64,000 nt of DNA, from NCBI RefSeq assembly GCF_002257665.1, contig NZ_MQWB01000001.1:3014619-3078618 (forward strand), written 5' to 3'. The notes under the pieces were generated by a model. That model saw nothing but the letters and a program-made list of their open reading frames with translations, did no database searches and was not told the DNA's origin. Source of the DNA: Rubricoccus marinus. GTDB lineage: Bacteria; Bacteroidota; Rhodothermia; Rhodothermales; Rubricoccaceae. Below, in pieces: positions 18,711-31,634 of the stretch. The translations under genes were made by a program, and so were the position numbers. The number at the start of each line of letters is the position of its first letter. Position 1 is the first letter of the stretch.

Positions 18711-19721
18711 ATGCAAATCCAAGACTCGCCAGAGGCCGTCGACCTTCTCGCCGTGGGCGCTGGGCCCATCGGGCTCGCGTGTGCCCTCGCGGCCAAGCGG
18801 GCCGGCCTCACCGCCCGCGTCGTTGAGAAAGGCGCGATCGTCAACTCTCTCGTGGGCTACCCCACGCAGATGGAGTTCTTCTCCACGCCCGAGCTGCTGG
18901 AGATCGGGGGGCATCCTCTGGCGACGACATTGTACAAGCCGCGCCGCGAGGAGACCATCGACTACTACCGCACGGTCGCGCAGCGCGAGAGGCTCGACAT
19001 CCGGTTGGGCGAGCGCGTGCTGGGCGTAGACGGAGAAGCCGGTGACTTCACCGTCCGCACCAGCAAAGGCGAACACCGCGCACGCGCTGTCGTCGTCGCC
19101 AGTGGCTTTTTCGACCAGCCCAACCTGCTCGGCGTCGAAGGCGAGGACCTGCCTCACGTCACGCACTATTACAAAGAGCCGTACCCGTACAGCGGGCGGA
19201 ACGTCGTCGTGATCGGTGCCAAGAACTCCGCCGCCAAAGCCGCGCTGGAGTGCAACCGCCACGGCGCGAACGTCACGCTCGTCATCCGCGGCGAGGACGT
19301 CGGCCCAACGGTGAAGTACTGGATCCGCCCCGACCTCGTCAACCGCATCACGGACGGCGCCATCGCGGCGTACATGCGCACAACCGTCGAGCGCATCACG
19401 CCAGAGGCCGTCCACGTCACCACGCCCGACGGGCCTCTGGCGATCCCGGCCGACGCCGTCCTCGCGCTCACGGGCTACCACCCGGACTTCTCGTTCCTGC
19501 GCGATCTCGGGATCGAGTTGGAGGGCGAGGCGCTCGTTCCCCACGTCGACGAGTCCACGATGGAGAGCAACCGCCCTGGCATCTACCTCGCTGGAACCGT
19601 GTGCGGGGGGTACAACACCAGCCGGTGGTTTATCGAGAACGGCCGCATCCACGCCGCGCGCATCGCCGCCCACCTCTCGGGTCAGCCGGCTCCCGAGTTG
19701 GAAGAGAGAGGGCAGCCGTAG
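18711..19721 (+). CDS. ypdA: YpdA-family FAD/NAD(P)-dependent reductase (putative bacillithiol disulfide reductase)
   Basis: 336 residues of a two-dinucleotide-binding-domain flavoprotein. The FAD-binding motif is GAGPIGLACA (from residue 16), followed by VVEKGAIVNSLVGYPTQMEF and FSTPELLEIGGHPL, which are characteristic of YpdA. The NADPH motif is NVVVIGAKNSAAKAALECNRHGA near residue 165. ADAVLALTGYHPDFSFL and GIYLAGTVCGGYNTSRWFIENG close the fold. Unlike thioredoxin reductase it lacks a CxxC pair, as is usual in YpdA, which reduces bacillithiol disulfide. This implies bacillithiol as the cell's low-molecular-weight thiol, as in many Bacteroidota, but no bacillithiol synthesis gene is in the window. 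Confidence 0.88.
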   Translation: MQIQDSPEAVDLLAVGAGPIGLACALAAKRAGLTARVVEKGAIVNSLVGYPTQMEFFSTPELLEIGGHPLATTLYKPRREETIDYYRTVAQRERLDIRLGERVLGVDGEAGDFTVRTSKGEHRARAVVVASGFFDQPNLLGVEGEDLPHVTHYYKEPYPYSGRNVVVIGAKNSAAKAALECNRHGANVTLVIRGEDVGPTVKYWIRPDLVNRITDGAIAAYMRTTVERITPEAVHVTTPDGPLAIPADAVLALTGYHPDFSFLRDLGIELEGEALVPHVDESTMESNRPGIYLAGTVCGGYNTSRWFIENGRIHAARIAAHLSGQPAPELEERGQP

Positions 19722-19748: not shown

Positions 19749-21797
19749 TCAGCGGATTCCGTTCTGTTGCAGGATGCCGAGCACTTGCTGCGCGGTCTGC
19801 TGCTGCGGGTTGATCTGCAGCGCCGTCCGCGCGCTTTGTAGAGCGCCCTGCGCGTCGTTCTCGTTGAGGAGGTAGAGCGCGAGGTTCGCCTGTGCGTTCG
19901 CGTTACGGGGGTCCGCCTGCACGGCCCGTCGGAACAGAGCCGCAGCCTCCCCGGTCTGGCCCTGCTGCGCCAGAAGCACCGCGAGGTTCGTCAGGGCGTC
20001 TGCCTGCCGGGGCTCCAGCTTGATCGCCTCGCGAAGCGCCTGCGCTGCGCCCTGGACATCGCCCGCTTTCGCGAGCGCGCCACCCAGAAGCGTGTGCGCC
20101 TCCACCTGCCACGGCTCCTCCTGGATCGCCGCGCGGTACTGCGCGATGCCGTCTGGAATCCGCCCCTGCGCTTCCAACAGGCGCCCAAGGTTGGTGCGGA
20201 TGTCGGACGCAGCCGGCTGGATGTCGAGCGCCTGCCGGTACAGCTTCTCCGCCTCGCTGGCGCTCCCGCCAGAGACCTCCAGCGCTTGCGCAAGCGTGTT
20301 GAGCCGCTCCGGATTGGCCTGGAGTTCGATCGCCGCACGGAGCGGCTGAATCGCGCCTCTGGCGTCCCCTGTCTGAAGCCGCGCGAACCCGAGCAAGAAC
20401 TGAGCTTCGCCCGCTCCCGTCGGCTCATCCAACGCGCTCTCCAGCATCGCGAGCCCACGGCGGAACGCGGGCGATCCACCGCTCTGCCGTGCGAATACGA
20501 TGTACGCGATGCCGCGCAAGGCCTCATCGCCCTCGTCCCGCTCGTAGTACGGCACCAGTTCGGACTCCGCGCCAGAGGCCACGCCCGAAATCGCGTCATC
20601 GCGCACCACGCGGATCTTGTGGTCGGTAAACGATGCGTGCGGCGCGTCCTTTGCCGTCACCTTCGGCATGTGGCACGAAAAGCAGTTGGCCTCTGGCGCG
20701 TGCTGCTCCTTCAACTCGCCCGAGGCCATCTGGCCCTGAAGCGCATCAGGCGCGTGGCACGTCTGGCATGTGGAGTTGAAGTACTCCGGCCCTTTGTCTT
20801 GGAACCCCTCGTGTGGATTGTGACACGTCACGCAGTCCATCGATACGGACTCCTGGAAGCAGGCGCTCTCTTTCATCCGGTCGGAATGAGAGATCACGCT
20901 GACCTCGTTCGGGTCGGTGTTCGTCAGCGAGAAGATGGCGCGGTGCGCCGCCAGAGGCATTCCTGGCCGGTAGCTCGTCGCGGTTTGCCCCTCACGGATG
21001 ACCGAGACCTCGCCGCTCAGGTGGCACTGCTGGCACACATCAAGCCGGAGATCCGTGCTGAGCCACTTCGGGTTCACGATGGTGACATCCATCGAGTCGG
21101 GCGCCTCCTCTTCTGCCGTCCGGGCCTCTACGTGCAACTCGCCCGGCCCGTGGCACTGCTCGCACCCGATCCCGCTGGCGAGCGACGCGTACTTCCCGTC
21201 GGTGTACGGCACGTACTCGCTCGTGCCGTTGTGGCACGCCATGCACCGATCTGGAATGGCTCGCGAGAAGCGCGCGTTGTTCTGGTCGTACCCGGGGCTC
21301 AGTGCCCACACGCCAGAGGCGCCCCCACTGTCGTCGCGTGTGTACCACGTCAGCGGCAACTCGTACAGCCTTCCGTTCTCCTCGGAGAGGTACGTCCGGG
21401 CAGCAGATCCGCTCCCCACCACGTAATCCATCGTCCGCGTCAGTTGGTGCGAAACGCTCCCATCCGGTTCCACGCGGCGCTCCTCCTGCACAAATCGCCC
21501 TCCCTCTCGTTTCGCCACGTACTCAAACCCCGATGCGGCGTGCCGAACCACGACGCCGGAAAAGTCCTCGACCGCGTTGTCCTCCGCCAGAGGATAGAAC
21601 GACTGCGCCATGCCGTGCGTGGCGTAGCTCGCGTATAGCTCCTCGTGGCACGTTCCACACGTCTCGTTGCCTACGTACTGGACCTCTGGCGCGAGGTTGA
21701 GAAACTCCTGGCCCGCATCTACTCCTTTCGGATTCAGACACGCTGCCAACCCGAAGACGAGTACGATGAAAGCGAGTCCGAGCGCGAGCGGGCGCAT
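19749..21797 (-). CDS. Seven-haem c-type cytochrome lipoprotein with C-terminal TPR repeats
   Basis: 682 residues. A lipoprotein signal peptide ends at Cys20 (VFGLAAC). Seven CxxCH haem-binding motifs follow: CGTCH, CMACH, CEQCH, CQQCH, CVTCH, CQTCH and CFSCH, all within about residues 45-345. The C-terminal ~270 residues are tetratricopeptide repeats (for example GDARGAIQPLRAAIELQANP, GEAAALFRRAVQADPRNANA). This architecture, cytochrome c554-like haem packing plus TPRs, is seen in multihaem cytochromes of unknown partner. Location would be the periplasmic face or the outer membrane. A role in electron transfer to or from an unidentified redox protein is inferred. An upstream promoter is not obvious. 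Confidence 0.88.
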   Translation of the reverse strand: MRPLALGLAFIVLVFGLAACLNPKGVDAGQEFLNLAPEVQYVGNETCGTCHEELYASYATHGMAQSFYPLAEDNAVEDFSGVVVRHAASGFEYVAKREGGRFVQEERRVEPDGSVSHQLTRTMDYVVGSGSAARTYLSEENGRLYELPLTWYTRDDSGGASGVWALSPGYDQNNARFSRAIPDRCMACHNGTSEYVPYTDGKYASLASGIGCEQCHGPGELHVEARTAEEEAPDSMDVTIVNPKWLSTDLRLDVCQQCHLSGEVSVIREGQTATSYRPGMPLAAHRAIFSLTNTDPNEVSVISHSDRMKESACFQESVSMDCVTCHNPHEGFQDKGPEYFNSTCQTCHAPDALQGQMASGELKEQHAPEANCFSCHMPKVTAKDAPHASFTDHKIRVVRDDAISGVASGAESELVPYYERDEGDEALRGIAYIVFARQSGGSPAFRRGLAMLESALDEPTGAGEAQFLLGFARLQTGDARGAIQPLRAAIELQANPERLNTLAQALEVSGGSASEAEKLYRQALDIQPAASDIRTNLGRLLEAQGRIPDGIAQYRAAIQEEPWQVEAHTLLGGALAKAGDVQGAAQALREAIKLEPRQADALTNLAVLLAQQGQTGEAAALFRRAVQADPRNANAQANLALYLLNENDAQGALQSARTALQINPQQQTAQQVLGILQQNGIR

Positions 21798-21846
21798 ATG
21801 TGCGTGGGGCGTGTGAGGCCTCTCCTCACGAGGCCCATCAAACTAC

Positions 21847-21880
21847 AAAAGGCGGCCCCGGCATGAACCGGGGCCGCCCT
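21847..21880 (-). terminator. Intrinsic terminator of the surface-protein operon
   Basis: Eleven-bp stem GGCGGCCCCGG (21851-21861) with CCGGGGCCGCC (21868-21878) and a 6-nt loop. Read on the minus strand it is followed by TTTTGTAGTT. It lies 24 bp beyond the stop of the PorV-like gene, so it ends that transcript. It does not use the genome's 10-bp element, unlike most gene ends here. Confidence 0.85.
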
Positions 21881-21903
21881 TGAATGCTCGATCAGCTGTC
21901 AGG

Positions 21904-22944
21904 CTAGATGCCGACAGAGACAGAGAACATGTTCACGTCGCCGAACACGTCCGAAGGACGGTAGGCGTAGTCAACCTTGAGGGACGTGGTCTGAACGTCG
22001 AGGTTCAGGCCAGCACCCACGTTCCATCCGCGCCAGAAGTCCTGGTCGTTGTCCGCGGTGATGTTGAAACCACCACGGGCGTACACCAGGCTCGCATAGC
22101 CGAGCTCGAGGCCCGCGCTGTACTGGTCCTGGTCGTAGGAGATCGAACGGAAGTTCGCCATTCCGGACACGGACACGTCACCAGCGAACTGGCGGGTGTA
22201 CGCAGCGCCGAAGTTCAGCACCGATGGAAGCTGTGCCGGGAGATCGTCGATCTCGCCTGCAATCGTTCCGGGTCCGTTGGGACCGTTGTTCGGCGTGCTA
22301 CGGCGGAGGCCGTCACCACCGAAGGTCATCTCCTGACCCAGGTTCTTCAGGCTGACTCCGAAGCGGAGACCTGACTCCGGCACCACGTAAGTGATGCCGG
22401 CGTCGAAGGCCAGTCCGTTTGAGTTGACGTTGTCAATCGTACGTCCGAGAGCCTTCAGCGTCGCGCCCGCACCGATGCGGTCCGTGAACTGACGGCTGTA
22501 CGTAGCGCCGAATGAGTACGTCGACGCGTCGTACGTCTCGAGAGCGTTCGGGTTGGTGTCCGGCCGCTCCTCCGAGGTACGGGCGATATCGCCGTAGTCC
22601 CAAGAGGTGAGCGTCAGAGCAACGCTGTTCGCGCCAAACTTCTGAGCGACTCCGAAATAGTTGATGCCGATGTCCTCGACGTAATCCATCCGGCTGAACA
22701 TGACGCTCGTGCCGTTGGATGCGAGGATAGCAGCAGGGTTGCTTTGAGCGGCTTCGACACCTGAAAGGTTGTCGAGTCCACTCGTGAGGGTATTGCCGAG
22801 AGCAACCGTGCGGGGTGTAACAGGGACGAGGAGTTCCTCCATCGCCTGTGTACCTGCCCGGTCGTCCTGCGCGGAAGCACCCGGAGCAAAGAGCCCTGTA
22901 AGGCCCAGCCCAGCGGCGCAGAGTGCAAGGATTCTGGTTTTCAT
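21904..22944 (-). CDS. PorV/PorQ-family outer-membrane beta-barrel protein
   Basis: 346 residues with a signal peptide (MKTRILALCAAGLGLTGLFAPGASA). The mature protein has the PorV/PorQ pattern: an early MEELLVPVTPRTVALGNTLT, then VEAAQSNPAAILAS, then alternating beta strands with 'GVSLKNLGQEM' and a C-terminal DYAYRPSDVFGDVNMFSVSV. In the type IX system, PorV shuttles secreted cargo at the outer membrane and PorQ aids attachment. It is the last gene of an apparent three-gene unit with a TonB receptor and a large T9SS-type protein (39-bp gap), so it may serve that cargo. Its codon use is less GC-biased than the surroundings and it has no copy of the 10-bp element. Confidence 0.85.
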   Translation of the reverse strand: MKTRILALCAAGLGLTGLFAPGASAQDDRAGTQAMEELLVPVTPRTVALGNTLTSGLDNLSGVEAAQSNPAAILASNGTSVMFSRMDYVEDIGINYFGVAQKFGANSVALTLTSWDYGDIARTSEERPDTNPNALETYDASTYSFGATYSRQFTDRIGAGATLKALGRTIDNVNSNGLAFDAGITYVVPESGLRFGVSLKNLGQEMTFGGDGLRRSTPNNGPNGPGTIAGEIDDLPAQLPSVLNFGAAYTRQFAGDVSVSGMANFRSISYDQDQYSAGLELGYASLVYARGGFNITADNDQDFWRGWNVGAGLNLDVQTTSLKVDYAYRPSDVFGDVNMFSVSVGI

Positions 22945-22983
22945 GGTCTGATGTGTGCGTTGAGGTCAGTAAGCGACCGGGCT

Positions 22984-25900
22984 CTAGAAAACGGTGATCT
23001 GGGTCCGGCGCTGTACGACTCCGAGCTTGAGCGTCCGCTCACCAACTCCTTCCACGTCAACGTGGATGAGGTACATGCCACTCGCGACCGGCAGGTTGTT
23101 CTCCGTTTCGAGGTTCCAGTCGAGGGACCTGCTCGAACCCTCCTTGCGGAGCGTCTTCACCAGCGTTCCTGCGACCGTAAAGACGCGAATCGTCGAGGCC
23201 TGCTCCGGGAGGTTCGTGAAGCGAACCACGCGGCTCAGGTTACCCGTCTCGTAGGTCGAAGCACCCAGGTACGGGTTAGGAACCACCTGGATGTTTTCGA
23301 GCGCTGCAACAGCGTCCTCTGCAGATCCAGCGAGAAGCTGGTTGCCGGAGGTGTCGAGCGTGAAGACATCACCGGGCTGGTTCGGCTTCGACGTCGAGAG
23401 GCGGAAGATTGTGCCTTCCTCCGGGAACGCGAACTGATCGAACGCACCAGCAACCTCGGTGTCGCCACCGTTCCACCACACGAGTGCGGAACGCAGCAGA
23501 GAAGCTCTTCCGTTGTCAACCAACGGAGCAGCTGCAGCTGGGTCCGACTGAATAGCGGCTACGATCGCGTTGTATCCGCTCTCGCCTGGCGTACGGTCCT
23601 GAGGAATGATCCAGGTGATTCCGTCCGTGTACGGGTCGTTCGTCAGGCTAGACATCTGGCTATCGCCAGAGCAGCAACCAAACGTTCCCTGGATACCAGG
23701 GGTGTTGATGAAGCTGAATGCCTGACCACCTGGCGCAACGCTGAAGTCCAAGTCGAAGATCGTCGGGAAGTACCGGACGTCATCGCTCGTGTCATCTGGG
23801 GTTGCAATGCCCGTGTTCCAGAGCTCGAACGGCACCTCGATCAGGATCGGAGGCCCAAACGTTGTACCGCTGTAAATCGCAGCGTAGTTGGTCTCGCCCG
23901 TGAAGCGGATCTCCCAGTCGAACGGGACAACGCTGTCCTCACGAGAGGTTCCGATTCCACCGACGTTCTCGTTGAACTCGTCGAGTGTGTGCCCCGTGAG
24001 AGCCTCGGCAGGCCCCACGAAGTACCGACGGTTGTTCGTCGACTGCTGCGTTCCCGCAACAGGGTCGATACCACCAGGAGTGGGATACCCGGCGAACGCA
24101 GGAGCGGCTGGGTGCAGCAATGGACCGGCTGCGTTCTGGATCGTCGCGAAGTTCGTGAACTCCGGCGCAGGTCCCTGAACGCTGAAAGACAGACCGTCGA
24201 TCACGGCAATGTTGCGCCCCTGGGGGACGGCCGTGCTATCGCGGTCGTAGTACTCCCGTCCGTCCAGCGCAACACGTCCAGTCGTCGCGTTGATGATGCT
24301 GTAGGTGGTGCTGCCGTCGTCCTCGTTCGTAAAGAACTCGACACGGTAGGTGTCACCCGTTACAGCAGTTGGGTCAACGATGGTTGCGGAGACCGTTCCC
24401 TCACCAACCTGCTGAACCGCCACGCCCTGAAGCTCATCGGCGAACTGGGACTGAGTCCGGTTGCCGCTGGTGAGAGCAGACGGACGAGCCGTGATCTGCG
24501 TCGGCGAGCTCTCGATCACCTTCGGCGTGGACTCCTCGTTGAAGGAGTACGCTGAGACGCCATAGTAGTAATCCGTGTAGTTCGTGACGTTCTGGATCCG
24601 GTACGAGTACTGGATGCCGGAGTCCGTTCCACGAGCGACAACCTTGGGAGCGAGATCGCCGAGATCGCCGTCGAAGACGAGGTCGATCACGCGGGTCACG
24701 CCGTTGACGATATCGTACGTGGCGACCAACTCGCGAGCGGACTCGTCGAAGTCGGACGTTGGGTAGCGATAGATGTTGAAGCCTTCGAAGTTGTACGTGT
24801 TGTCGTCAACCTCCTCGGGGTCGAGGAGAACGTCCACTGCTTCAAAGCGGGCGAGGTAGTTCGCGTTGTTCGAGGGGTATCCCCACACGAGCGTCGTTTC
24901 ACCATCCTGGCTGATTGCCTCGAGGCAGTTGCCCGATCCGGGCGCGAGAACGTCGCTTCCGGGCTGGCACCTAGGGGGTGCTGGAGGCGGTGGAGCGAGC
25001 TTGAAGTCGTTGTCGTAAGCCGTTTGCGCGAGGCGGTCAGCCGAACGCAGTGCCGTGATCGAGCTGAAGCGGTCAGCTCCCTGTGCGAACACGATTCCGA
25101 ACACGATGTCCTGGGGATCGTTGCGCTCGAGCGTGAACGGACCCGTGTGGATCACCAAGCGACGGTCACCCGCAGGGTTCGACGTGCCATTTCCATCGAT
25201 GTTGACCTCGCTCCAAGTCTGCCCCGTTACAGGGTCGCCTGGGAAGGCAAACTTCGTGATCGGGAACGTCGTCGGCTGCTGGTATCCCGTGCCATTGGCA
25301 CGCATTGGAGAGCCATCACCCCACAGTCCCTGCATGTAGAAGTACATCTGCTGTCCCGTGACGGGGTCACCGGTCGTCGTTGGAGACGATCCGTTGATGA
25401 AGTACGAGAACGCAGTAGCATCGAGAGTATCCGTTCCAACGATCGGACCCTGGAAGAAGTCATAGCCTGCAGCCGGGGGGGCTTCGCCATAGACCTGATC
25501 TGCAGGGTTGGAGTTGTACACGTAACCCAAGCCCAACTCCTGATCGTAAGAGACGTAGTCATCACCTGCGTCGCCGAGGTCCGGGTCGGAGAAGACCGAG
25601 ATGTACGTCTCTTCAATCGGAGTTGCCCCCTTGTTGATGATCCGGTAGCGGTAGAACGTCGTCTCTCCCAGCGCGTCAGCGCGGGAGAAAGAGAACGCCA
25701 ACACCTGGACCTCAATTCCGAGGGGGTCCGTGGCCTGCACCGAGTGCTCGTTGCCCACGTCGTTCATGACCCAGAAGATGCCCTGGTCACCGATGATCTC
25801 GGGGCGGTCTCCACCCGCGAGGTTGTAGTTGCCCTCGATACCATCTCCGTCAATGACGGGTGCACCGATCTCAAACGGCCAATCCTCGAGATCACCCGTC

Positions 25901-26334
25901 TCAGCGAGACCTGCTTCGTAGTTCGCGATGTTGGTGCGCGTTACGCTGTAGATCTCGTCATATGCACTACAGTTGTTCGGGTTGACGGGACGGCCGTCGT
26001 TGCCGAGCGGTCCAGGCCAGAAGTTGAAGTTGCTGTAGCGAGATCCGGCAACACGAAGGTCACCGTTGATCTTGCCACCCACCCAGATGCCAGACGCGAA
26101 GATCGGAGAGTTCTCCGATGCCTTCGGGGCCAAGTATCCGTCTCCGTTTGTGGTGGTGTTTCCGAAGAAGAGGCTACCCGTGTTAAAGACACGAGCAAAA
26201 ATGTTGTTGATGTCGAGATCGGCTTCAGCCGTTCCCAACGTGCAGTTCCCAGGAGTCTGAGCTGCTGTTGTAGGCGCCAGCACTCCTGCTAGAAGCAAGA
26301 GGAGGAGCGTGGTCGCGTGTCGAGTGCGAACCAT
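22984..26334 (-). CDS. Large secreted surface protein with a T9SS type A-like C-terminal sorting domain
   Basis: 1116 residues with a signal peptide (MVRTRHATTLLLLLLAGVLA, cleavage after TTAAQ). The long beta-rich body includes GIWVGGKINGDLRVAGSRY and PVIDGDGIEGNYNLAGGDRP, blocks shared with the smaller protein at 57533-59209. Near residue 1010, VPNPYLGASTYE opens a C-terminal FlgD-like/T9SS domain, with IRVFTVAGTLVKTL and LPVASGMYLIHVDVEGVGE. This predicts export by the type IX system and attachment to the cell surface. Between the TonB receptor and the PorV-like gene, with short gaps. No enzymatic motif is seen. The coding region lacks the 10-bp element entirely. Function unknown; adhesion or polymer binding is possible. 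Confidence 0.85.
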   Translation of the reverse strand: MVRTRHATTLLLLLLAGVLAPTTAAQTPGNCTLGTAEADLDINNIFARVFNTGSLFFGNTTTNGDGYLAPKASENSPIFASGIWVGGKINGDLRVAGSRYSNFNFWPGPLGNDGRPVNPNNCSAYDEIYSVTRTNIANYEAGLAETGDLEDWPFEIGAPVIDGDGIEGNYNLAGGDRPEIIGDQGIFWVMNDVGNEHSVQATDPLGIEVQVLAFSFSRADALGETTFYRYRIINKGATPIEETYISVFSDPDLGDAGDDYVSYDQELGLGYVYNSNPADQVYGEAPPAAGYDFFQGPIVGTDTLDATAFSYFINGSSPTTTGDPVTGQQMYFYMQGLWGDGSPMRANGTGYQQPTTFPITKFAFPGDPVTGQTWSEVNIDGNGTSNPAGDRRLVIHTGPFTLERNDPQDIVFGIVFAQGADRFSSITALRSADRLAQTAYDNDFKLAPPPPAPPRCQPGSDVLAPGSGNCLEAISQDGETTLVWGYPSNNANYLARFEAVDVLLDPEEVDDNTYNFEGFNIYRYPTSDFDESARELVATYDIVNGVTRVIDLVFDGDLGDLAPKVVARGTDSGIQYSYRIQNVTNYTDYYYGVSAYSFNEESTPKVIESSPTQITARPSALTSGNRTQSQFADELQGVAVQQVGEGTVSATIVDPTAVTGDTYRVEFFTNEDDGSTTYSIINATTGRVALDGREYYDRDSTAVPQGRNIAVIDGLSFSVQGPAPEFTNFATIQNAAGPLLHPAAPAFAGYPTPGGIDPVAGTQQSTNNRRYFVGPAEALTGHTLDEFNENVGGIGTSREDSVVPFDWEIRFTGETNYAAIYSGTTFGPPILIEVPFELWNTGIATPDDTSDDVRYFPTIFDLDFSVAPGGQAFSFINTPGIQGTFGCCSGDSQMSSLTNDPYTDGITWIIPQDRTPGESGYNAIVAAIQSDPAAAAPLVDNGRASLLRSALVWWNGGDTEVAGAFDQFAFPEEGTIFRLSTSKPNQPGDVFTLDTSGNQLLAGSAEDAVAALENIQVVPNPYLGASTYETGNLSRVVRFTNLPEQASTIRVFTVAGTLVKTLRKEGSSRSLDWNLETENNLPVASGMYLIHVDVEGVGERTLKLGVVQRRTQITVF

Positions 26335-26370
26335 AGGATCAGTTTTCGTAGGTAATGACGACGGCGAGAA

Positions 26371-26399
26371 CTGGCCTGAGCGTTGGATGCTCAGGCCAG
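26371..26399 (-). terminator. Hairpin between the TonB receptor and T9SS-protein genes
   Basis: Eleven-bp stem CTGGCCTGAGC (26371-26381) with GCTCAGGCCAG (26389-26399), 7-nt loop. On the minus strand only TTCTCG follows, a weak U tract, so partial termination or mRNA processing could set different levels for the receptor and downstream genes. Confidence 0.6.
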
Positions 26400-26415
26400 T
26401 TTGTTCGCGTGCTGT

Positions 26416-29400
26416 CTAGAAGTCGAAGAGGAGACCGAGACGGATCTGCCGCGGTGAGCCGTAGAAACGGCCGGCACCGGAGGACTGCTGTCCTCCAACG
26501 TTGACAGGACCACCCGTGTAGGCCTGGTAGTTGAACAGACGTCCCGGCGTGTCCAGCTGGCTTCTGCCAGCGGCCGTGTTGACGAAGCCATCTTCGTTCG
26601 GCAGGCCAGTAGACCGGTACACAGCGAGGACGTTCTTCGTGTCCAACAGGTTGATCACGGAGACGTACGCCCGGACTCTCGAATCGCTGAACCCGAGGTT
26701 GAACGCGCGGTCCACCCGGAGGTCGAGGCGAGTCGTTGCGGGCAGCTCTGCACCGTTGATGGTGCCATCTACGTTCTCGGTGAACGAGTCACCCACGTTG
26801 AAGCGAGTGTTCCTCTGCAGGCGGGTGTAGCGAAGGCCACTTCCGAACTGACCGATGAGGTTGACTCCGAAGTTCTCGAGAGCGCGAACGCCACCGAGCA
26901 TTGGGCCTTCACCTGCGCCGAAGCGGTAGTCCAGGCTCACGTTTGCCGTGTGACGCTGATCGAAGTCAGACGGGCTGATGAACTGCGGGAAGTAATCTCC
27001 ACGCCATGCAGCCGTACCGGTCGAGTTCGCGTCCGAACCCGTTCCCTGTGCGAAGGAAAGCGTGTAGTTCGCGTTGATCGACAGGTTGTTCGTCCGGCGC
27101 AGATCGAAGTTGAGCTCTGCACCCTGCGTCGTCGTGAAGTCCGCGTTGAAGTAGGTGGAGTAGGCGGGGAAGCCACCCGTCACCTGACGCACGGAGATCT
27201 TGTTGTCCTGCGTACGGTAGAAACCGGACATGCTTAAGGCAGCACGCTCACCGATACGCTGGCGGAAGCCGAGCTCGTACTGCGTTGTCCGCTCTGGCTC
27301 CAGCGTCGGGTTCGACGTGCGCTGCTGGCCGTCGAGCTCTTCGAAGGATGCGAGCGTGGCGAACGCGGCCTCGGTTGGGCGCTGCGACGTCACGTTGTAG
27401 CTCGCGAAGAAGAGCGCCCGGTCGGTTACCGGGAAGCTGACTCCAACGCGGGGCATGAACGTTGCCTGTGGCGTGTACTCCTCGAACACCGTCGAACGCG
27501 GAGCGTCGATGGAGCGGACCTGACCACGGTTTGTCGTGATGATCTGGTCTGCAACGACGTTCGTGCCTTCGGCATCGTAGAAGTTGCCGTCGGTGTCGCG
27601 GTATCCAACGACGTTGTCGCCGTTGTAGTAGACAGCGAAGTCACTCTCAATACCTGCGGGAGCCGTCATGTCACCCACGCGCTGGATTGGCGTCGGTGCG
27701 TAGATGTCCTTGAGCTGCAGCGTGTTGTTGTCGAACACGTCAGCGCGGAAACCGAGCTGAATGATCAAGTCCTGGAATTCGATCTTGTCCTGGATGTAGC
27801 CAGCGTAGTAGCGCGGGCGGTACGCGTCCAGGTTTGTGTTGCTGCGGTTGCCGTCAGCGTCCGGGAAGTATCCGTCCACGCTCTGATCGTTGACCTCCTC
27901 CGTACCGTTGAAGTTGAATCCGTAGTAGGAGACACGGTTGCGGAGGGTGCTGTACGGGATCTGATCGTAGCTGGTGATTCCGTCTGGGAAGCCCTCGATG
28001 GTCTGCTCTGGACCGTCGTCGTCGTTCACGAACCGGGAGAGGCTGTAGCCACCGATGCTGAAGAAGCGCCGGGTGTCCTGCTGGTACTCACCACCGAACT
28101 CGAGCTGGTGGACGCCCACCTGCGTGGTCGCGTTACCGGAGAAGCGGTAGCGCTGGTTGTGCGACTTGGAGTACCCCGTGTTCGTTACGCGGCCTGGAAG
28201 GCTGAACGTGTAGCCGAACAGCGAGCCAGGGCGGCCTCCGCCGTCCTCGTCAAACTGCTGGACGTAAACGGGTTCCTCCGTACCGGGCTCGTTGCGGAAC
28301 ACGTAGTACCGCTGCGCAACCTGGTTTGCCGGAGAGTTGAGATCGCCGTACTGCAGAACATCGTTGATGTCTGAAGAGAAGCCATCTGGGTATGAAACGC
28401 CCTGGTTGTCCTGGAACTCGCCCTGAATCTGGTAGAACGCGGAGTTCGACAGACGCTGAAGGAAGGTTCCGTAGAGGCGGTAGCTATCCGTTTCGTTACG
28501 CTGGAACGTCTCCCGGTTGTAGAGGGAGTTGGTGAAGCTGAACGGCTCGCTGCGCGACGTTGCAAGACCACCGCCCAGGCGGAGGTTGACAGCACCCAGG
28601 TCGAAGTTCAGGTTTCCGTTCAGCGTGACGTTCGTGTTCGGATCACGCTTGCCACGAACGAGGTCGAAGTCGCTCGCGGTAAAGTTCTCGACGCGGTTGA
28701 CGGGGCTGCCGTTTGCGATCGTCGAGCCTTCGCCGATGATGTTGTTCGCGAGCAGGAGCGCCTGAAGGGAGTCCTGACCGATCGGTCCGTCGAGGCTGCG
28801 GATCAGCTCGATGGGGAAGTTGACAAGCTCCTCCTCTCCCTGTGCGTTCGTGATGCGCAGAGCCTGAGGGGTCGCCTGGATGCTCTCGTAGAGATCATCT
28901 TTGAGGCGGTACGTGTCGATTCCGTATGGGCTGTTGTCCTCGGTGTAGCCGTACTCCCCAGAAAGGAAGAAGCCAACACGGCCCGGAGCGATAGGACCGC
29001 CCAGGGAGAGAGACGCAAGGTTGTCGCCGAAGGAATCAAGGCCCTGGCTCGTCACGACCTCGGCGGAGCCGAAGAAGTCGGAACGGCCCGTCTTGGTCGT
29101 GATCGAGATCACGCCAGACTGGACATCGCCGTACCGGGCAGGGATCGTTCCGATGAGAACCTCCTGCTCCTGAATGGCCTGCTGGTTGACACCGAGAAGG
29201 CCCGTCACGCGAACACCGTCCACGTAGTAGGCGACCTCTTCTCCACGACCACCGCGGATGTTGAGCGTGCTCGTGTTGTCTGCAGAGACGACACCGCCCT
29301 GGAGGGCCGTGACGCCAGCCACGCTACGAATCGGGAGGTTTTCAAGGTCCTCTCCTGAAACGACGCGAGGAACGCCGATGGCGTCCTGCTGGATGATCGG

Positions 29401-29757
29401 CCGCTCGTAAATGACTTCGACCGTTCCGAGCTCGCTGCCTCCGAGTTCGAAGCTGACTTCTCGGGTCGCTCCGCTGTTGATGTCGACACCTTCAAGCGTG
29501 AGCTCCTGGTATCCAGCGAAAGACGCGGTGACGTTGTAAGTGCCGACGGGGACACCGATGATGCGGAATTCGCCGTCGAGGTTGGTTGCGGCGCCAAGTG
29601 TCGTGCCTTGAACGACGACGTTGGCTCCAGGAAGAGTATCCCCGGTCTGGGCGTCAGTGACGCGACCAGCGAGGGTGCCTGAGTTCTGTGCCAGGGCTAC
29701 TCCGGGGAGCAGACCTACCAGCAGAAGGAGTACGAGTGTACTCGGTGAACGGAACAT
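26416..29757 (-). CDS. TonB-dependent receptor with N-terminal carboxypeptidase-like regulatory domain
   Basis: 1113 residues from ATG 29757, preceded by GGAGG. After the signal peptide (MFRSPSTLVLLLLVGLLPGV), a CarboxypepD_reg-like domain spans about residues 25-110 (GTLAGRVTDAQTGDTLPGAN, GTYNVTASFAGYQ). The plug domain follows (LENLPIRSVAGVTALQGGVV, LNIRGGRGEEVAYYVDGVRV, IPARYGDVQSGVISITTKTG). The remainder is a 22-strand-type barrel ending in the outer-membrane signature GLLFDF with terminal Phe. Such receptors import siderophores, vitamins, glycans or peptides using TonB energy; the ligand is not readable. It heads a unit with a large T9SS-type surface protein and a PorV-like protein, suggesting a cell-surface capture system. 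A sigma70-like promoter lies ~300 bp upstream. No copy of the 10-bp element occurs in it. Confidence 0.92.
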   Translation of the reverse strand: MFRSPSTLVLLLLVGLLPGVALAQNSGTLAGRVTDAQTGDTLPGANVVVQGTTLGAATNLDGEFRIIGVPVGTYNVTASFAGYQELTLEGVDINSGATREVSFELGGSELGTVEVIYERPIIQQDAIGVPRVVSGEDLENLPIRSVAGVTALQGGVVSADNTSTLNIRGGRGEEVAYYVDGVRVTGLLGVNQQAIQEQEVLIGTIPARYGDVQSGVISITTKTGRSDFFGSAEVVTSQGLDSFGDNLASLSLGGPIAPGRVGFFLSGEYGYTEDNSPYGIDTYRLKDDLYESIQATPQALRITNAQGEEELVNFPIELIRSLDGPIGQDSLQALLLANNIIGEGSTIANGSPVNRVENFTASDFDLVRGKRDPNTNVTLNGNLNFDLGAVNLRLGGGLATSRSEPFSFTNSLYNRETFQRNETDSYRLYGTFLQRLSNSAFYQIQGEFQDNQGVSYPDGFSSDINDVLQYGDLNSPANQVAQRYYVFRNEPGTEEPVYVQQFDEDGGGRPGSLFGYTFSLPGRVTNTGYSKSHNQRYRFSGNATTQVGVHQLEFGGEYQQDTRRFFSIGGYSLSRFVNDDDGPEQTIEGFPDGITSYDQIPYSTLRNRVSYYGFNFNGTEEVNDQSVDGYFPDADGNRSNTNLDAYRPRYYAGYIQDKIEFQDLIIQLGFRADVFDNNTLQLKDIYAPTPIQRVGDMTAPAGIESDFAVYYNGDNVVGYRDTDGNFYDAEGTNVVADQIITTNRGQVRSIDAPRSTVFEEYTPQATFMPRVGVSFPVTDRALFFASYNVTSQRPTEAAFATLASFEELDGQQRTSNPTLEPERTTQYELGFRQRIGERAALSMSGFYRTQDNKISVRQVTGGFPAYSTYFNADFTTTQGAELNFDLRRTNNLSINANYTLSFAQGTGSDANSTGTAAWRGDYFPQFISPSDFDQRHTANVSLDYRFGAGEGPMLGGVRALENFGVNLIGQFGSGLRYTRLQRNTRFNVGDSFTENVDGTINGAELPATTRLDLRVDRAFNLGFSDSRVRAYVSVINLLDTKNVLAVYRSTGLPNEDGFVNTAAGRSQLDTPGRLFNYQAYTGGPVNVGGQQSSGAGRFYGSPRQIRLGLLFDF

Positions 29758-29762
29758 TGCTA

Positions 29763-29767
29763 CCTCC
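29763..29767 (-). promoter_or_regulatory. Shine-Dalgarno GGAGG of the TonB receptor gene
   Basis: GGAGG lies 5 nt before ATG 29757 and fixes this start over the longer upstream frame. Most other genes in the window have no such sequence, so it marks this transcript as unusually well suited to ribosome binding. Confidence 0.7.
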
Positions 29768-30055
29768 GAGTTGGTGGTGTGAAGAGCCCGAGCGAGCGCG
29801 GGTGTGTGGTGCGCGGCCCGAGGTGGATGGTGCGTCTTAGGGACGCCGGCCTTGTGGGTGTACAGACCGGGGACGGACCGGCCACTTCGGCCGGGAACCG
29901 TGATCCTGCCCGTGTTGGGCAAGCGGCCCACGCCGCAACCCTCGTGGGATCAGTGCCTCTCCGCTTCGGGCAAGCCCGAGCGCGTGTGTGTGAGAAGAAG
30001 GCTGTAACAACCTCGTGGCGCAGATCGGTTGAGGAGGGATGAAGCGACAGTCGCG

Positions 30056-30085
30056 AATATAGCCGGGCCGTTAAGCCAGGGTCAA
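30056..30085 (-). promoter_or_regulatory. Sigma70-like promoter for the TonB receptor operon
   Basis: On the minus strand TTGACC (30080-30085) and TATATT (30056-30061) are separated by 18 bp. They match the classical -35 TTGACA and -10 TATAAT at 5 of 6 positions each. Transcription would start near 30049, leaving a ~290-nt leader. It lies in locally A+T-richer sequence. Confidence 0.6.
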
Positions 30086-30697
30086 GGCACGCTGAAGTGC
30101 ATGCCTCCCGTAACGGGCCTTTCGGAACCGCTCAGCGTGTCCGCGTCTGACCTACAAGGTACACTCCCAGCCGGAAATCGCCTCTGGCGTGTCAGGCGAG
30201 GCCTCACGAGGGTGAAGCTAACGGGGCATGGCAAGACCCGCGCGTTCTGCGTGGGGCACACAGGAGTGCCCTCTTCCCCGTTGCGAGTCTAGACGCCTTC
30301 GGTGGGATGCCCGAGCGCCCTATCGGCGCAGAAACAGCCCGCATTTGCTCTGAGCACCAGCAACCGACCCATGGCCGGGCCGAGACCCAGAGCCCTCGCG
30401 TGACGACTTCGCAGGCGAAAGGGGTACCCACGCCTCTGGCGTTCCAACCAGTGCACGCCGAGACTCTAGAGCAGAGAACACATGCGACCCGGCCTCTGGC
30501 GAGGGCGCTCCGCCAGAGGCCGGGGTGGTTCGCGACATGTGCCGCAGCACACCTGAGACAGCAAGCAACCTCGCGGTGCCACGTCGAGTGGTTGGGACGG
30601 TTCGCGCCCGATCCACCCCTAGAGAACCGGACGCGCGCGGGAGGGTCCTAGCCTCCCACTCACCCGCCTCGCCCGAGCCACTTTGCAGGCTGCGCTG

Positions 30698-30770: not shown

Positions 30771-31634
30771 ATGTCTGACTACGCACATCCTGACGTCCTC
30801 GTCTCCACAGATTGGGTTTCCCACCACCTTGCCGACACCGCCAACGTCCGGGTGATCGAGTCGAACGAGGACATCCTTTTGTACGCGACGGGGCACCTGC
30901 ACAACGCGGTCCACGTGGATTGGACGAACGACCTTCAAGACCCGGATGTGCGGGACTACATCTCCACGAAACAGTTCGAGCGGCTGTGCTCCCGGCTCGG
31001 CATCCATGAGGACACGACCGTCGTGTTCTACGGTGACAAGTCCAACTGGTGGGCGTGCTACGCCTTCTGGACGTTCAAGATGTTCGGGCACAAGGACTGC
31101 CGCATTATGGACGGTGGCCGGGCCAAATGGGTGGCCGAAGGCCGTGTGATGACGACCGACGTGCCTACGTTCGAGAGCGCCGACTACGACGCGAGTGAGC
31201 CCGACACCTCGATCCGCGCGTTCCGGGACGACGTGATGAACCACATGAAGGACGGGGGCCAGATGGTGGACGTGCGCAGCCCGCAGGAGTACATCGGGGA
31301 GGTGACGCACATGGCCGGCTACCCGCAAGAGGGCGCACTCCGCGGCGGCCACATCCCTGGCGCGAGCAATGTGCCGTGGAGCCGGGCCGCTGGGGAGGAC
31401 GGCACGTTCAAGAGCCGAGACGAGCTGGAAGCGATCTACCTGGAGGAGCAGGGCCTCAACCCGAAGGAGGACATGATCGCGTACTGCCGTATCGGCGAGC
31501 GCTCTAGCCACACGTGGTTCGTGCTGAAGTACCTGCTCGGCTTCGAGAACGTCCGCAACTACGACGGCTCGTGGACGGAATGGGGCAACCTCGTCGGCGC
31601 GCCCATCGAAAAGGGCGAGCCCGACGAGAACTAG
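30771..31634 (+). CDS. Thiosulfate/3-mercaptopyruvate-type sulfurtransferase (two-domain rhodanese)
   Basis: 287 residues with two rhodanese domains. The N-terminal, inactive one ([20 protein letters not shown] ... [14 protein letters not shown]) is followed by the C-terminal catalytic one ([14 protein letters not shown] ... [14 protein letters not shown]). The active-site loop [16 protein letters not shown] carries nucleophile Cys239. CRxGxRS resembles thiosulfate sulfurtransferases more than the CGxGVTA of mercaptopyruvate enzymes. It moves sulfane sulfur to cyanide or protein acceptors in the cytoplasm. It lies 66 bp upstream of sufE, consistent with sulfur supply to Fe-S assembly, although that link is inferred from position. 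Confidence 0.92.

Follow-up and report, generated by a model that had tools for sequence, protein, structure and literature searches.

The absence of a densely iterated 10-mer from almost 9 kb of the Rubricoccus marinus genome (labelled G000) is a real, extreme, yet explicable exclusion of the word from apparently highly expressed, constrained genes. This word desert lies in a window of 64 kb (the whole stretch of DNA that was analyzed, C1:3014619-3078618) of the 4.43-Mb genome, which is assembled in 15 contigs. It is probably due to vertically inherited, very highly expressed and strongly selected genes that exclude the word.

The iterated word and the block that lacks it

The iterated element is the 10-mer GCCTCTGGCG, or CGCCAGAGGC on the opposite strand. 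With 224 copies, it is by far the most strongly over-represented word of the 64-kb window. We found 14,176 copies in the 4.43 Mb of the genome, compared to 61 of the reversed control. The word is not palindromic (GCCTCTGGCG versus CGCCAGAGGC as the reverse complement), and the genome-wide strand split is 7049 versus 7127, without strand polarity in any of the sampled regions (e.g. 514 versus 491). It is also sharply defined: 4484 exact copies were counted versus 34 expected, and its single-mismatch variants each reach at most 467, many of them lying at background. Densities were determined in a sample of 1.29 Mb (29% of the genome), taken as stretches, in which genes were predicted with a simple codon-usage caller of our own that places some starts approximately. 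The word occurs at 3.46/kb overall, at 2.46/kb in genes and at 9.20/kb between genes. In the sampled loci L027-L066 and L113-L132, its density rises to a peak of 30/kb within 20 bases 3' of stop codons, and short spacers between convergent genes hold 46/kb. Of the 4462 neighbour intervals, 475 correspond to overlapping inverted pairs that are perfect and 18 bp long. The placement of the word 3' of stops, in convergent spacers and in inverted pairs is terminator-like.

When coding copies were aligned to relatives, the peptide was kept in 33 of 255 alignments and the rest were mostly gap-free replacements, the word usually replacing about three residues. Since most coding copies thus align gap-free to a different peptide, the alignments indicate that the word arises by substitution in place and not as an inserted element. 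Outside the block described below, 75-93% of word-compatible peptides carry the word. In sampled genes, word copies contain 66% of the AGA codons and 47% of the TCT codons, and across the sampled 1.29 Mb the word reshapes codon use and the peptide content of the proteome (ASG, PLA, PEA, ARG).

The earlier note on this DNA had reported no full copy between about 21.7 and 30.2 kb, which we can confirm. The 10-mer is missing from 21311 to 30180 (8869 bp) and its 8-mer core CCTCTGGC from 21683 to 30181 (8498 bp); the second-longest word gap within the window is 2173 bp. The desert is also the longest word gap in the 1.29-Mb sample, followed by gaps of 5268, 4191 and 3996 bp. Windows of 8 kb contain on average 27.6 copies (sd 7.4), with zero only at the desert and a minimum of 4 elsewhere. 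As had likewise been stated, the gap covers exactly the genes of the TonB receptor, the 1116-residue T9SS-type protein and the PorV-like protein, all on the minus strand (Table 1).

Table 1 Features of the word desert and its flanks (positions in the window)
Feature	Position	Strand	Evidence or remark
Word desert	21312..30179	.	No GCCTCTGGCG/CGCCAGAGGC; 8-mer core CCTCTGGC absent 21684 to 30180
Multihaem cytochrome/TPR protein gene, flanking	19749..21797	-	Word density normal: 5 copies, 2.4/kb
Terminator-like hairpin downstream of PorV-family gene, without word	21851..21878	-	Sequence
PorV/PorQ-family outer-membrane protein, 346 aa	21904..22944	-	NF033709 116.8 bits, cut-off 90
Secreted T9SS-type protein, 1116 aa	22984..26334	-	C-terminal ~120 residues weakly like PorZ C-terminal region
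Terminator-like hairpin between TonB and T9SS-type genes, without word	26370..26400	-	Sequence
TonB-dependent receptor, 1113 aa	26416..29757	-	PF00593 89.9 bits, PF13620, PF07715
Rhodanese-family sulfurtransferase, flanking	30771..31634	+	Conserved neighbour in G004, G006

The PorV-family protein does not reach the NCBIfam equivalog cut-offs of PorV, PorQ or PorV2. The T9SS-type protein (22984-26334) has no Pfam match, and its weak similarity to the PorZ C-terminal region (NF052228, 28.6 bits) lies below the cut-off. The TonB receptor combines N-terminal carboxypeptidase-regulatory-like and plug domains and starts with the ATG at 29757, which is preceded by GGAGG. The Shine-Dalgarno sequence described earlier is therefore present in the TonB gene, but not in the other two block genes; an SD-like motif is found in about 10% of genes. 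The two hairpins, which had been placed at 26371 and 21847, are real (about 26371 and 21850) and contain no word. Upstream of the TonB gene, no RNA family was matched in Rfam within 18-32 kb.

The second-longest gap of the sample (L119, C11:100354-105622; 5268 bp, GC 0.61) likewise encodes a TonB/carboxypeptidase-regulatory-like receptor (998 aa) adjacent to a large secreted protein, and could be an acquired segment, as two-choice codons are less biased there. In a word-free stretch of 2.8 kb with a GC content of 0.60 (L060, C1:1560411-1563250), our gene caller finds no gene. The rRNA operon (L136) lies in a 7.8-kb interval, of which 5 kb are masked as N (L136:8119-13118); the unmasked remainder is word-free.

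Ancestry and codon use of the block

The block genes have the same order and neighbours in G001, G004, G005 and G006, and relatives are also found elsewhere in the order. The conserved syntenic set comprises the gene at 18711, the PorV-family, T9SS-type and TonB genes, as well as the cytochrome/TPR gene in G001 and G005 and the rhodanese gene in G004 and G006. In trees of the three block proteins, G000 pairs with G001 and G004 pairs with G006, and G005, where present, lies between them; a reference tree of 12 concatenated ribosomal proteins gives the same grouping. Identity to G001, which belongs to the same genus, is 79% for the PorV-family protein, 61% for the T9SS-type protein and 78% for the TonB receptor, compared to a genome mean of 73% (sd 18). 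PorV-family orthologues are 60% identical in G005 and 54% in G004 and G006. Overall, gene order and trees indicate that the block is ancestral and vertically inherited and was not recently gained. The comparison of gene tree, reference tree and synteny that had been proposed earlier thus counts against acquisition, not against selection.

We used codon use as a proxy for expression. Ribosomal-protein genes show a signature in which T-ending fourfold codons (GCT, GGT, CGT, GTT) are raised, while two-choice codons keep C/G. In the block genes, T-ending fourfold codons amount to 0.23-0.27 versus about 0.05, which places them at ranks 1-3 of more than 600 genes, directly followed by ribosomal proteins L4 and S3. 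Two-choice codons of the block are C/G-ending at 0.93-0.98. The less GC-skewed codon use noticed earlier is evident in a GC3 of 0.73-0.79 versus a mean of 0.89. The signature is ancestral, since it is high in block orthologues of relatives too: they hold ranks 1-3 of 56 in G001, and it is high in G006 and G005 and partly in G004. Judged by their codons, the block genes are apparently very highly expressed. The EF-Tu gene (L028:8172-9359; C1:2928172-2929359), with a GC3 of 0.99 and 84% GCG for alanine, is opposite to other highly expressed genes; as it is word-free yet lacks the signature, the signature is an imperfect proxy.

Probable selection against the word and alternative readings

Low word density is not confined to the block. 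The earlier note had asked whether other highly expressed genes show normal density, and they do not: coding parts of rpoBC and of the ribosomal protein, EF-G and GroEL genes are equally depleted. We found 0.43 words/kb in coding DNA of ribosomal operon genes, a single word in the 8.3 kb of rpoB and rpoC, and none in the coding DNA of L11, L1, L10, L12, EF-G, EF-Tu, GroEL and GroES. The 30 genes (35 kb) that show the full signature contain 0.48 words/kb, compared to 2.3-2.5/kb in others; without the signature, AT-rich genes have 1.73/kb and C/G-biased genes 2.33/kb. The surface-protein class as such is ruled out as the cause, as 22 other TonB receptors sampled have a normal density of 0.7-6.6 words/kb. 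Avoidance of the rare codons that the word forces (TCT, CCT, CCA, AGA, AGG) was rejected as well; the block uses TCT, CCT and CCA above average.

In a Poisson model of 100 genes with orthologues, both predictors, codon signature (z -4.15) and protein identity (z -2.24), were associated with fewer words. For the coding DNA of the block the model predicts 2.15 words, with a chance of 0.12 of finding none. The expectation of about 30 copies given in the earlier note therefore holds for the genome mean, but drops to about 2 for coding DNA once codon signature and conservation are matched.

Relatives have words of their own. CCGCCAGCG has about 3.9k copies in G001 and G007, and CCGAGGCGG has 4.1k, 3.3k and 2.5k copies in G004, G006 and G008, respectively; in the small portion of sequence read from G002, G003 and G005, no comparable iterated word was seen. 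One word is common to different genera (G001 and G007), and G000 has a word that differs from that of its congener G001. The orthologous block of G004 (8.2 kb) is free of that genome's own word, versus 0.97/kb (p 0.0013), that of G006 contains one copy (p 0.054), and in that of G001 an 8-mer occurs twice within 5.4 kb (p 0.024; not significant for a 9-mer, p 0.59); these tests are individually weak, and the tested words were partly picked on the same data.

These observations fit a mechanism in which the word would spread through the genome by base substitution, usually swapping about three codons when it lands in a gene, and would be subject to molecular drive in the manner of a DNA uptake sequence. 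Within the TonB/T9SS-type/PorV-family cluster, purifying selection would then remove word-creating changes before fixation. We infer here that expression is high, that the word works through uptake, and that selection, rather than inaccessibility, excludes it. As most words that arise in a gene alter the protein, strongly selected genes would be expected to refuse them. With 37-52% identity to G004, conservation of the block proteins is no more than moderate, so that the constraint must act through expression. The selection proposed in the earlier note is supported by the codon signature and by the depletion of other highly expressed genes and of the relatives' blocks. That the word was purged is probably better phrased as never fixed, since the block holds no excess of one-mismatch relics (1 observed, 1.1 expected).

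Selection on coding sequence does not account for the empty spacers of the block. None of the four (39, 82 and 107 bp, and the 420 bp that precede the TonB gene) contains a copy. Among matched spacers, the proportion lacking the word is 49, 23, 10 and 13%, so that the joint chance for the block is about 0.0015. In the ribosomal and rpoBC operons, spacers contain words at normal frequency. The empty spacers leave two readings, an extra exclusion from the block transcript or recombinational replacement from a word-free relative.

According to the latter, the ancestral cluster was recently overwritten, spacers included, by homologous recombination from a word-free close relative or strain. This would explain the word-free spacers together with the 420 bp upstream, the missing surplus of one-mismatch relics, and GC and GC3 values below those of the flanks. 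We nevertheless regard it as unlikely. The identity to G001 (79, 61 and 78%) is ordinary and the trees match the ribosomal tree. Moreover, the codon signature matches native, highly expressed genes and recurs in G001, and the orthologous blocks of G004 and G006 are also poor in their own, different word.

Exclusion from the transcript could act at the RNA level, if hairpin-forming word pairs terminated or destabilized a very highly made mRNA and were hence kept out of it. Such harm would account for the empty spacers, and the common overlapping inverted pairs, the word peak just after stop codons and the word-free terminator-like hairpins of the block itself are in line with it. The normal word frequency in ribosomal and rpoBC operon spacers argues against this reading, which we consider quite improbable.

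Composition alone, that is, a low GC content or a lack of suitable peptides that makes the word improbable by chance, is a very improbable cause. The block does contain just 2 word-compatible peptide sites in 2575 residues, which is background level, and neither is used. However, most compatible peptides elsewhere carry the word, mostly having replaced another peptide, so that their scarcity in the block is a consequence, not the cause. GC3 is not predictive either: genes with a GC3 of 0.75-0.80 have 2.9 words/kb, and the low-GC3 genes at 2631784-2636287 (GC3 0.74-0.79) have about 2 words/kb. The remaining proposal of the earlier note, a recent gain of new genes from a foreign word-free source, can hardly be upheld, for although the block has a GC content of 0.60 versus 0.69 and a differing codon use, it is refuted by the synteny in four family members (G001, G004, G005 and G006), by gene trees that follow the ribosomal-protein tree and by the C/G-ending two-choice codons (0.93-0.98), which AT-rich foreign DNA would have lost.

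Comparison with known word systems

Chi sites are short frequent words tied to recombination. The word resembles them and replication-polar words in being short and frequent, but differs from them in the lack of strand polarity in the sampled regions. In the literature searched, no work on such iterated words in this group was found.

The DNA uptake sequence (DUS) of the Neisseriaceae is a 10-mer whose copy number reaches about 6000 in the 2.4 Mb of Kingella oralis; in Simonsiella, 1294 overlapping dyad pairs occur, and related Neisseriaceae species use different dialects (PMC3630211). The word described here is likewise a 10-mer with very many copies in both orientations, overlapping dyads and different words in relatives. 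In contrast to the DUS, it is found in a Rhodothermales host and, with 3.2 copies/kb genome-wide, is denser than the DUS of K. oralis. The uptake signal sequences (USS) of the Pasteurellaceae arise by point mutation under molecular drive, and they are under-represented in coding sequence that is constrained, in rRNA genes and in segments that were newly acquired (PMC7811141, citing Findlay and Redfield 2009). The present word is likewise scarce in constrained genes. USS occur about once per 1000 bp (PMC7811141), as opposed to about one word per 286 bp here, where coding copies mostly alter the protein. HIP1 of cyanobacteria is a palindrome occurring about once per 1000 nt, is linked to orphan methyltransferases and is replaced by alternative words in some species (PMC4390886). 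Our word has in common with HIP1 that it is short, genome-wide and replaced by other words in relatives, but it is not palindromic.

Like DUS and USS, the word combines thousands of copies, equal strands, dialects in relatives, origin by substitution and rarity in constrained genes. The ComEC family occurs in each of the nine family genomes, also in those that have no iterated word. We see about even chances that the word is a DNA-uptake-like self-marking with species dialects in this Rhodothermales family, which would have rewritten thousands of protein positions, the desert representing the few proteins under selection strong enough to resist. If this self-marking reading is true, word density would be a genome-wide read-out of selection per gene. 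The molecular-drive theory of uptake sequences predicts such deserts, since a word that spreads itself would go on filling the genome up to the point where gene function halts it. The density of the word exceeds the highest DUS count given in PMC3630211 and its copies mostly change proteins, so that density compared gene by gene may measure resistance to change. The word system is of more interest than the desert itself, which marks the ancestral TonB/T9SS-type/PorV-family cluster as a probable dominant surface system of these bacteria.
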